Assembly: GCF_014217565.1 (NCBI RefSeq)
Contig: NZ_CP043661.1
Span: 6,572,001 to 6,636,000 of the forward strand
DNA: 64,000 nt
Direction: 5' to 3'
DNA from: Kribbella qitaiheensis
GTDB lineage: Bacteria > Actinomycetota > Actinomycetes > Propionibacteriales > Kribbellaceae
Shown: in pieces, positions 7,067-13,304 of the stretch
Position numbering within the stretch: the stretch's first letter is position 1
Layout: each line of letters opens with the position of its first letter
Program-made: the position numbers and the translations under genes
The notes under the pieces: model-generated
Told to the model about the DNA's origin: nothing
Seen by the model: the letters and a program-made list of their open reading frames with translations, nothing else
Databases searched by the model: none

Positions 7067-8104
7067 GTGAAGCTTCTTCGCGCCGTCAGTGATGTCGTGG
7101 TGGTCCCAGCAGGAGTCACTGCGGGTATCGCCGTGTTCGACCGGGAGACCGGGCAGTTCACGGAGCAGCTGAATCCCGATCTGCGGTTCCGGTCCGCGTC
7201 CGTGGTGAAGCTGCTGATCGTGCTGGACTACCTGTGGGACCGCGGCCCGGAGTACGTGGTCACTGCCGCCGACAAGGCGCAGCTCGACGTGATGCTGCGC
7301 AGCAGTGACGACGATGCCGCGAGCCACTACTGGGACCAGCTGGGTGGCGGGCAGATCGTCGACCGGATGGTGCAGCGGCTCGGTCTCACCCACACTGCAC
7401 CTCCACCGGCGACCCACCCGGGCTTCTGGGGGTACGTCGCGCTGACAGCAGCCGACACCGTGCGGATCTACCGCTACCTGCTGGACCAGGCGCCCGCGCC
7501 GGTCCGCGACTACGTACTGGGCAACCTGCACCACGCCACTCGCTACGGCACCGACGGCTTCGACCAGTACTTCGGGATCGCGTCGGTGTTCGACCCGCAT
7601 TTCGCCATCAAGCAGGGCTGGTCGGGGTTCGTGGGATCGAGCGGCTTCGGATCCGATCGCGCCAAGCCCAAGGTGAACGTGGTGGACCTCATCAGCGAGG
7701 CGCTGCACACCACCGGCACGGTTGGGACGGGGGACCGGACGATCATCGCGGTCTACACGCTGCACCCCGACGGAACGGCGTACGGCAAGGCCTACAGCGA
7801 CATCACGCGGTTGACCCGCACGTTGAACGTGCCAGGCGGCGTACCTGCCGCTGGTAGCTGGCTGATGACCAGCGGTTCCGGCGTACGGGTTCGGGCCGAG
7901 CCGACCACGTCCGGCGACATCCTGGGTAGCCTGCCGTCAGGTGTGGAAGTGTTGGTGACCTGTCAGAAGAAGGGGCAGCTCATCGACGCTCCGCCGCGAT
8001 CCAGCGAGTGGTGGGCCTACCTACCGAAGTACGACGGCTATGTCACCAACGTGTACGTCGGTTCGGGCGCCCCGAAGCTCCCCGGAGTCCCGGACTGTCA
8101 GTGA
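7067..8104 (+). CDS. Serine hydrolase (class A beta-lactamase-like) with C-terminal SH3-type domain
   Basis: 345 aa from a GTG start. The SxxK motif is SVVK in FRSASVVKLLIVLDYL near residue 46, as in penicillin-binding/beta-lactamase folds. SDDDAASHYWDQL further on occupies the place of the SxN motif, but no typical KTG is obvious (the KQGWSGF segment sits where it would be). From about residue 265 GVRVRAEPTTSGDILGSL is an SH3_3/SH3b-like wall-binding repeat ending at the C-terminus. No classical signal peptide precedes the catalytic domain, so either the true start is upstream or export is non-classical. Ends in TGATAG and runs straight into the 27-bp inverted repeat. Confidence 0.8.
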   Translation: MKLLRAVSDVVVVPAGVTAGIAVFDRETGQFTEQLNPDLRFRSASVVKLLIVLDYLWDRGPEYVVTAADKAQLDVMLRSSDDDAASHYWDQLGGGQIVDRMVQRLGLTHTAPPPATHPGFWGYVALTAADTVRIYRYLLDQAPAPVRDYVLGNLHHATRYGTDGFDQYFGIASVFDPHFAIKQGWSGFVGSSGFGSDRAKPKVNVVDLISEALHTTGTVGTGDRTIIAVYTLHPDGTAYGKAYSDITRLTRTLNVPGGVPAAGSWLMTSGSGVRVRAEPTTSGDILGSLPSGVEVLVTCQKKGQLIDAPPRSSEWWAYLPKYDGYVTNVYVGSGAPKLPGVPDCQ

Positions 8105-11488: not shown

Positions 11489-11519
11489 TGACATGTCAAC
11501 CTATGGTGGTGATATGTCA
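11489..11519 (+). promoter_or_regulatory. Double operator and -10 box of the first Ddn-like gene
   Basis: Two copies of the 10-bp palindrome TGACATGTCA: perfect at 11489-11498, one change (TGATATGTCA) at 11510-11519. They are 21 bp apart and flank the -10 box TATGGT (11502-11507). The second copy covers the ATG at 11514. Same design as at 11979-12011, so a common repressor is inferred. Confidence 0.75.
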
Positions 11520-11951
11520 TCAGAAACGGAATATGCCCCTAGTCCGACGCCTTTCGTCCGGGACATGGTGGCGCAGATCGAGCAAGCGGGAACGACCGCG
11601 GTGATCTCGCACGGCAAGGGTGTCGTGCTGCTGACCACGCGAGGCGCCAAGACCGGCAAGATCCGCAAGGTGCCGTTGATGCGCGTCGAGCACGACGGCG
11701 TGTACGCCGTGGTGGCGTCGCTCGGCGGCGCGCCGAAGCACCCGGTCTGGTACTTCAACCTGAAGGCCGACCCCAAGGTTCAGTTGCTGGACGGTGAGGT
11801 CACCCGCGAGTTCGTCGCCCGGGAGCTCGAGGGCGCGGAGCGCGACGTCTGGTGGGAGCGATCCGTCGACGCGTGGCCCGACTACGCCAACTACCAGACC
11901 AAGACCGACCGGCTGATCCCGGTCTTCGTCCTGGAGCCCGCCGGCGACTGA
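11514..11951 (+). CDS. Deazaflavin (F420)-dependent nitroreductase family protein, copy 1
   Basis: 145 aa, ATG at 11514, leaderless. The sequence from about residue 40 ([20 protein letters not shown]) to the end is typical of the split-barrel Ddn/F420H2-dependent reductases: TGKxRKVPL cofactor loop, [13 protein letters not shown] and a C-terminal VFVLEP strand. Such enzymes reduce or detoxify quinones and nitro compounds using F420H2. A near-duplicate gene follows after 54 nt, and both carry the same operator pair. The substrate is unknown. Confidence 0.88.
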
Positions 11952-11978
11952 CCGGTGAGGGAGACGCTCCAGTGCCGT

Positions 11979-12011
11979 TGACATGTCACCGGTACTATCG
12001 GTGACATGTCA
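11979..12011 (+). promoter_or_regulatory. Double operator and -10 box of the second Ddn-like gene
   Basis: Two perfect copies of TGACATGTCA (11979-11988 and 12002-12011), 23 bp apart, around the -10 box TACTAT (11993-11998). The whole forms a 14-bp perfect inverted repeat (TTGACATGTCACCG and its complement) with a 7-nt spacer. The right copy covers the ATG at 12006. Confidence 0.8.
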
Positions 12012-12443
12012 ACCGAAAACGAGTACGCCCCCAGCCCGACCACCTGGGTTCGCAGTGCGGTCGAGAAGATCGAGGAGACCGGCAGCACCGAGTCGGCCGG
12101 CTTCGACGGCATGAGCGTCATCCTGATGACCATGCGCGGCGTCAAGTCCGGCAAGATCCGCAAGGTGCCGGTGATGCGCGTCGAGCACGACGGCGTGTAC
12201 GCCGCGGTCGCGTCGCTCGGCGGCGCCCCGAAGAACCCCGTCTGGTACAACAACCTCAAGGCCGACCCGAAGGTCGAGGTGCTGGACGGCACCACCACCA
12301 AGCAGTTCGTCGCCCGCGAGATCGAGGGGGAGGAATACGACCTTTGGTGGAAGCGATCCGTCGCCGCCTTCCCGACCTACGCGGAGTACCAGAAGAAGAC
12401 CACCCGCGTGATCCCGCAGTTCGTCCTAGAGCCCGTCCAGTAA
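12006..12443 (+). CDS. Deazaflavin (F420)-dependent nitroreductase family protein, copy 2
   Basis: 145 aa, same length as copy 1 and closely similar throughout (YAPSPT N-terminus, [35 protein letters not shown]). It differs mainly in the N-terminal helix and substrate-facing residues (WWKRSVAAFPTYAEYQKK). A tandem duplication is the evident origin. Its own leaderless promoter and operator pair mean the copies are co-regulated but separately transcribed. Confidence 0.88.
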   Translation: MSTENEYAPSPTTWVRSAVEKIEETGSTESAGFDGMSVILMTMRGVKSGKIRKVPVMRVEHDGVYAAVASLGGAPKNPVWYNNLKADPKVEVLDGTTTKQFVAREIEGEEYDLWWKRSVAAFPTYAEYQKKTTRVIPQFVLEPVQ

Positions 12444-12572: not shown

Positions 12573-13304
12573 GTGCGGGAACCGTTCGTCGGGTCGACGC
12601 GCTTGCGTCTGGCCGGACTTGCACTGCATGCCTACACAGCGAGCGGAACGGTGCTCGCGCTGCTCATCGTGATCGCGGCGATCGACGGCGACGCCGTCCG
12701 CGCGCTCTGGCTCGGCCTGGCCGCGCTCTGGATCGACGGCACCGACGGCATGATCGCGCGCCGGCTCAGGGTGAAGGAGACCATCCCCTGGTTCGACGGC
12801 GCGATGCTCGACAACATCGTCGACTACCTGACGTACGCGTTCGCGCCGATCGTTTTGCTGTGGACCGGCAACTACCTGCCGCACGGCTGGTACGGCGCGG
12901 TGCTCGCCGCGCTGCCGTTGCTTGCCTCGAGTTACCAGTTCTGCCGGGTCGACGCGAAGACCGACGACCACTTCTTCCTCGGCTTCCCCAGCTACTGGAA
13001 CGTGGTCGCCTTCTACGTGGTGATCCTCGGCCTCGGCCACACGGCGACCGCGCTGATCCTGCTGATCTGCTCGATCCTGGTCTTCGTCCCGGTGAAGTAC
13101 GTCTACCCGTCGCGGACCAAGGCGTTCCGGTCGATGAATCTGCTGACCACGCTGGTCTGGCTCGCCGCGTACGCCGTACTGCTGACCCAGATGCCGAACC
13201 CGAACTCGATCGTGATCGGCATCTCGCTCGCCTATCTCGTGTACTACGCGGGGCTCAGTCTGTATCGGACCTTCTGGGTGCCGCGCCGGACGAAGGCCGT
13301 CTGA
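12573..13304 (+). CDS. CDP-alcohol phosphatidyltransferase family membrane protein
   Basis: 243 aa, GTG start. The family motif is complete: DGTDGMIARRL followed by FDGAMLDNIVDY, giving D-x2-D-G-x2-A-R ... G-x3-D-x3-D. Around six to eight TM helices follow. The length and the YQFCRVDAKTDDHFFLGFP segment resemble bacterial phosphatidylcholine synthases (CDP-diacylglycerol plus choline), but the substrate cannot be fixed from sequence. Its stop codon abuts the GTG of the next gene (TGAGTG), so the two are probably translationally coupled. Confidence 0.85.
   Translation: MREPFVGSTRLRLAGLALHAYTASGTVLALLIVIAAIDGDAVRALWLGLAALWIDGTDGMIARRLRVKETIPWFDGAMLDNIVDYLTYAFAPIVLLWTGNYLPHGWYGAVLAALPLLASSYQFCRVDAKTDDHFFLGFPSYWNVVAFYVVILGLGHTATALILLICSILVFVPVKYVYPSRTKAFRSMNLLTTLVWLAAYAVLLTQMPNPNSIVIGISLAYLVYYAGLSLYRTFWVPRRTKAV

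Follow-up and report, generated by a model that had tools for sequence, protein, structure and literature searches.

Four 10-bp palindromes around the starts of two tandem ddn-like genes of Kribbella qitaiheensis appear to be operators for a MarR-family dimer of the RosR/SCO3205 type. The best candidate is a protein encoded elsewhere on the chromosome, referred to here as MarR-B, which would repress both the ddn genes and its own gene and be released by a redox or quinone signal; we put the probability of this reading at roughly 0.7. The window analyzed, a stretch of 64,000 nucleotides, corresponds to positions 6572001-6636000 of genome G000, a single contig of 8.16 Mb that its named relatives place in the genus Kribbella.

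The two genes (gene 1, 11514-11951; gene 2, 12006-12443) lie in tandem on the plus strand, each encoding a 145-residue protein of the F420H2-dependent quinone reductase family, and each promoter contains two 10-bp palindromes flanking a -10-like box. At gene 1, operator 1a (TGACATGTCA, 11489-11498) is located 5' of the plus-strand box TATGGT (11502-11507), itself 6 bp before the ATG, and operator 1b (TGATATGTCA, one change, 11510-11519) covers the start codon at 11514. At gene 2, operators 2a (11979-11988) and 2b (12002-12011), both reading TGACATGTCA, are likewise placed 5' of the plus-strand box TACTAT (11993-11998), 7 bp before the ATG, and over the start codon at 12006. The start-to-start spacing of the pairs is 21 bp at gene 1 and 23 bp at gene 2, so that the arrangement given in the preliminary description, one palindrome on either side of each -10 box with the second over the start codon, is confirmed in position and spacing. 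A clear -35 element was not identified at either of these two promoters, and the position of the -10 boxes together with the site over the ATG suggests leaderless ddn transcripts with a predicted start of transcription. Both proteins carry the PF04075 domain by which Ddn/Fqr enzymes are recognized (E 3.2e-45 and 3.3e-39, respectively; TIGR00026 in both cases), a membership that constitutes their likeness to the mycobacterial Ddn/Fqr enzymes, their enzyme activity being predicted; the closest solved structures to the gene 2 product are 3R5Z and 7KL8. Directly 3' of ddn gene 2 lies a gene resembling phosphatidylcholine synthases, below NCBIfam cut-offs (window 12573-13304).

A common 10-mer scattered at random, against which the preliminary description had cautioned, is not what the genome contains. 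Exact TGACATGTCA occurs six times in the 8.16 Mb of G000, with three of the copies in the window, and the reversed control occurs 0 times; allowing one mismatch yields 58 sites genome-wide versus 24 for the control. Within the window, five matches with at most one mismatch were found where shuffled sequences averaged 1.20, and none of 100 shuffles reached five; the fifth match, at 7956-7965, is isolated. The degenerate form TGAYRYRTCA is present 41 times in G000 versus 35 for its control, and most of its genomic matches are thus background, its only four matches in the window being the four ddn sites. The paired pattern TGAYRYRTCA-N10-22-TGACATG was found in 29 of the 38 Kribbella genomes (54 listed places, palindromic pairs being counted on both strands), with 0 control matches in the 38. 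At the level of the order, with W allowed at one base, it was found in 53 of 293 genomes (29/38 within the genus and 24/255 outside), with at least one control match. Chance, or a common 10-mer, is ruled out as an explanation by these genome-wide, one-mismatch and pair-pattern counts.

The sites are also conserved at orthologous genes. A ddn ortholog was found at E 1e-30 or better in all 38 genomes of the genus, and the starts of 50 ddn genes were read, with a search for the upstream site 20-25 bp 5' of the downstream site and a threshold of five of the six fixed bases. The upstream site retained all six bases at 36 of the 50 genes and the downstream site at least five at 38; both were recognizable (5/6 each) at 30. 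When the best ddn gene of each genome was considered, 24 genomes had both sites, 13 only one recognizable site and one none, such that at least one site is kept in 37 of the 38. The conservation anticipated by the preliminary description therefore holds within the genus but not beyond it, a site being found at 0 of 16 ddn homologs from 11 of the 21 outside genomes searched. All of the evidence comes from comparing sequences, and genomes drawn from a single genus are not independent of one another; with this qualification, conservation supports the view that the four palindromes behave as operators.

None of the 31 MarR matches of G000 lies inside the window, in agreement with the earlier observation that no regulator gene adjoins the ddn pair, and conservation supports the proposal that the regulator is encoded elsewhere and acts in trans, presumably as a repressor. 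The candidate, MarR-B (G000:C1:2850567-2851022, minus strand), lies 3.7 Mb from the ddn genes, was found in 38 of 38 Kribbella genomes, and is preceded by the same kind of site, as had been predicted for the regulator gene: TGA-N4-TCA is present in its own promoter in 37 of the 38, as a single site approximately 33-41 bp before the matched start. Among these 37 promoter sites, counted at 6/6 fixed bases where the ddn sites were counted at 5/6, 33 are of the TGAYRYRTCA form and 24 read exactly GGTGAYATGTCAAC. A MarR domain was recognized in the MarR-B of L090 (MarR_2 PF12802, E 1.4e-10; PF01047, E 1.8e-6), to which the G000 protein is 71% identical. The nearest solved relatives of MarR-B are SCO3205 (3ZPL, E 5.5e-25) and AbsC (3ZMD, E 1.6e-21), and phmmer aligned residues 2-144 of the MarR-B of L322 with residues 18-160 of 3ZPL, including the N-terminal RWL..E...W stretch, placing the protein in the SCO3205/AbsC subgroup. 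A cysteine (C91, REEC motif) is conserved in 30 of 31 MarR-B proteins of the genus, the anchor motif not being found in L143, and aligns with the sole cysteine that SCO3205 has within the aligned region. Genome G031, the sole genome without ddn sites, is also the sole one whose MarR-B promoter is without a six-base match, a five-of-six remnant (GGACGTGTCA) being retained there; this co-loss is a single, weak case and is suggestive only.

Relatives of MarR-B in other families (Saccharothrix, Pseudonocardia, Amycolatopsis, Planotetraspora and others) have neighbors that include flavin reductases and luciferase-like oxidoreductases. TGAYRYRTCA was present between -100 and +20 in 40 of 49 loci of MarR-B relatives, and in 24 of the 32 outside Kribbella-like records (some of the Kribbella loci come from genomes already in the genus set), against a background of 42 in 8810 random 120-bp windows. 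Since MarR-B relatives elsewhere mostly keep their own site and the ddn homologs found there are without it, control of ddn by MarR-B looks like an addition of the Kribbella lineage. Thirteen non-ddn loci with the pair pattern were opened, 12 of which have a MarR-family gene and a flavin enzyme as neighbors; the remaining one, in a single genome (G008, L084:1501-1535), has the pair TGACATGTCA and TGACATGTTA upstream of an Hsp20-like ORF named by eye.

Matrices were built from the own-promoter sites of MarR-B (37 sites) and of three groups of paralogs, A (18), D (56) and E (10), and used to score 37 upstream (6/6 fixed bases) and 38 downstream (at least 5/6) ddn sites from the 50 genes. The MarR-B matrix was the best of the four for 35 of the 37 upstream sites, 34 of the 38 downstream sites and all four window sites; one of the 37 upstream sites, that of a distant paralog (L078), falls outside the usual spacing and had its top score with one of the other matrices. 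Its own promoter site, its presence in 38 of 38 genomes and this matrix match together make MarR-B the probable regulator of ddn in trans. With a MarR-B matrix score of -1.6, a further G000 pair, at 7883208, appears to be a chance occurrence.

The wider regulon suspected in the preliminary description finds support in conservation, the predicted targets being MarR-B itself, a flavin reductase and, probably, ygfZ. Of 37 genomes scanned, 11 have a gene for an NADPH-dependent flavin reductase after MarR-B, and all but one of these loci (10/11) show in the reductase promoter a pair of sites like GGTTGACATGTCATCT / TGGTGATGCATCACCA, 29-30 bp apart; G003, outside the 37-genome scan, also has a paired flavin reductase locus (L081). 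The 16-mer TGGTGATGCGTCACCA is common to the flavin reductase promoter (L257, L166) and to ddn upstream sites (L055, L056, L062, L065), and the regulon is likely to include this flavin (quinone) reductase, which adjoins MarR-B in some species. A flavin reductase match was not found in the stretch after MarR-B in G000, G014 and G037 (L256, L254 and L255, respectively), which are the genomes with a tandem ddn pair and near-perfect sites, and one quinone reductase may possibly have replaced another there. Applied to 30 of the 41 TGAYRYRTCA sites of G000 (the 11 left out being four ddn and seven MarR sites), the MarR-B matrix returned one strong further match, TGGTGATATGTCAACG, with a score of 26.4, the next scoring 12.5. 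Its sequence and a family match to TIGR03317 place this site at the start of ygfZ (L261:1586-2587; G000:C1:5287585-5288586), which begins inside GGTGATATGTCAAC, the same site as in MarR-B's own promoter. The gene is present in 38 genomes; in all 30 loci that were read, its start context is GTGAYATGTCA, and ygfZ is probably a MarR-B target. In six of the 30 loci (L267, L275, L277, L284, L285, L293), a further copy of GTGACATGTCA stands at the beginning of a long reading frame that runs antisense to ygfZ.

Of the 31 MarR matches of G000, 30 have loci, and the seven closest to a regulator from a pair-pattern locus form a subgroup in which five carry TGAYRYRTCA upstream, versus 0 of the 23 others. 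Paralogous MarRs (L177-L228, L109-L114) have their own versions of TGA-N4-TCA in flanks and center, for instance GGTTGATGTGTCAACC in type D and CTTTGACATGTCAAAG in type A, and some are without such a site; from these sequences, the paralog operators look like a natural specificity set. The same five paralogs lend some weight to overlapping control, in which several paralogous MarRs would bind the ddn sites with different affinities, as do the four of 38 downstream ddn sites that scored best with the paralog-D matrix and the two of 37 upstream sites that scored best with E. However, the paralog operators differ in flanks and centers and the MarR-B matrix was best for 69 of the 75 sites, and we regard such overlap as unlikely, if the strongest of the alternatives. 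A better-matching paralog may exist, since the comparison rests on the upstream regions of 52 loci (L177-L228) among the non-B matches listed.

Slightly less probable again is that another MarR of the same subgroup controls ddn. The example closest to hand is MarR-A (G000:C1:4724157-4724582), which is divergent to a flavin reductase-acetyltransferase and whose intergenic region in G000 contains an exact TGACATGTCA and TGACATATCA, 30 bp apart; the resemblance of paralog operators to one another also speaks for it. Yet MarR-A's own sites are mostly CTTTGACATGTCAAAG-like, MarR-A is present in at least 11 of 38 genomes where ddn sites are present in 37 of 38, and its matrix gives operators 1a, 1b, 2a and 2b scores of 10.9, 3.4, 17.6 and 12.4 versus 20.9, 24.8, 26.6 and 21.1 with that of MarR-B. 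On these matrix scores, MarR-A was rejected as the main ddn regulator.

A PadR regulator (approximately G000:C1:4858370-4858915) has little claim to ddn: its promoter carries one of the only six exact genomic TGACATGTCA sites, paired at 29 bp with AGACATGTCA over a possible ATG start (L012:4338-4376; G000:C1:4858337-4858375), but with the MarR-B matrix this first site reaches 12.3, less than any of the four ddn sites. A pair formed by TGACATCTCA and AGACATGTCA, 31 bp apart, was also seen upstream of a glutathione peroxidase-like ORF named by eye (L013:4404-4444).

Least credible of all is that the pattern is a by-product of the composition of leaderless starts, with GGTGACATGTCA as a start context and no regulator site: the downstream site does sit on the start codon, the ygfZ start has the same form in all loci read, and ACA is a frequent second codon at Shine-Dalgarno starts (4/10 threonines), but in a 464-kb sample neither TGAYATG nor ATGTCA was found at any of the 31 other leaderless starts, which rules out a generic leaderless start context, TCA accounts for 3.9% of the serine codons in that sample and for none of the 14 second-position serines of its other leaderless and Shine-Dalgarno starts, the upstream sites are conserved away from starts, and the pair pattern had no control match in the 38 genomes. 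Codon 2 of ddn is TCA in 19 and ACA in 23 of the 50 genes, and the same frequency of ACA at Shine-Dalgarno starts means that ACA at this codon is no evidence for an operator.

Returning to control by MarR-B, the preliminary description had also read the spacing of the palindromes as two helical turns that would set two dimers on one face of the DNA. The ddn spacing indeed lies mostly at 21-24 bp: among 27 cases in the genus with an upstream site of 6/6 and a downstream site of at least 5/6 fixed bases, it is 23 bp in 17 and 21, 22 or 24 bp in the others, a variation that makes "exactly two turns, one face" only approximate. Site pairs elsewhere, however, are spaced by 29-30 bp (flavin reductase) and by 35-38 bp (most type-D MarR loci), leaving the helical argument weak. 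Because spacing differs among ddn, flavin reductase and type-D loci, promoter anatomy explains the placement of the sites better than helical phasing does.

The full consensus of RosR is TTGTTGAYRYRTCAACWA, and we know of no control of F420 enzymes by RosR. The statement in the preliminary description that no described regulator has this site did not hold. RosR (Cg1324), a hydrogen-peroxide-sensitive MarR of Corynebacterium glutamicum, is reported to have two sites at rosR, of which rosRb (TAGGTGATATGACAACAC, core GGTGATATGACAAC) overlaps the regulator's start codon, with a SNP there changing codon 2 (PMC7764795). The rosRb site as given there is close to the start-codon copy GGTGACATGACATC found in 11 of the 50 ddn genes, and ddn and ygfZ starts match GGTGATATGACAAC / TGAYRYRTCA over the start codon as rosRb does, the comparison being one of sites alone; MarR-B's own single site, in contrast, lies some 33-41 bp upstream of its start and not over the start codon. 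SCO3205 of Streptomyces coelicolor has two operators beside its own gene and a printed consensus TTnAAnnnTCAA; one operator, O3204 (ACTTGAACTCTCAATC), has a TTGA-N4-TCAA frame and with it the TGA-N4-TCA geometry of the ddn and MarR-B sites (PMC3737563). Electron density suggesting oxidation is described in the same report for Cys93, which is probably the cysteine aligned with that of MarR-B. The two systems differ in that O3205 has TTTAATGTTCAA without TGA, the core not being strict in the SCO3205/AbsC subgroup, in that site center and flanks differ, and in that the neighbor of SCO3205 is extradiol dioxygenase-like. MhqR of Staphylococcus aureus, a MarR-type quinone sensor and repressor controlling quinone resistance (PMC6798810, PMC12893000), resembles by description the role proposed for MarR-B in combining a MarR repressor with quinone resistance. 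A literature search with the raw site returned no bacterial-regulator paper by title among the matches listed. Judged by these comparisons, the site is of a known kind, and what is new is the regulon, within a known kind of regulator.

In unstressed cells, one MarR-B dimer would sit just 5' of each -10 box and another would cover the point where transcription and translation begin, and the two would exclude RNA polymerase from each leaderless ddn promoter; a single site of this type would also let MarR-B repress its own gene. Release may occur through the conserved C91 of the REEC motif or through a bound quinone, and would induce two-electron quinone reduction by F420H2, the ddn enzymes probably serving to detoxify quinones. 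We infer a quinone or oxidant signal as the natural guess from two precedents: resistance of E. coli to the quinone plumbagin requires ygfZ (PMC2989944), and the mycobacterial enzymes Ddn, Rv1261c and Rv1558 use F420H2 to reduce quinones (PMC3567243). A broader proposal, to which we give somewhat less than even odds, is that MarR-B senses quinones or thiol oxidation and runs a small quinone-defense regulon, in which YgfZ and one or two F420H2-dependent quinone reductases would join a flavin quinone reductase and MarR-B itself, and that the Kribbella MarR paralogs would be a natural set of near-orthogonal repressors, told apart by bases within and around a shared TGA-N4-TCA core.

Ddn-type enzymes activate nitroimidazole drugs. 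Among the literature matches listed, we saw no description of a regulator of Ddn-type enzymes, nor of MarR control of Ddn/Fqr enzymes. In mycobacteria, F420-dependent quinone reduction is tied to protection against oxidative stress, a protection ascribed to F420 (PMC3567243), and the regulon predicted here would tie quinone reductases to YgfZ, the factor needed for plumbagin resistance in E. coli (PMC2989944). If the proposed reading is true, Ddn-type enzymes would be under the direct transcriptional control of a redox sensor. Their induction is directly testable, now that a soil genus offers both a conserved operator and a candidate regulator.
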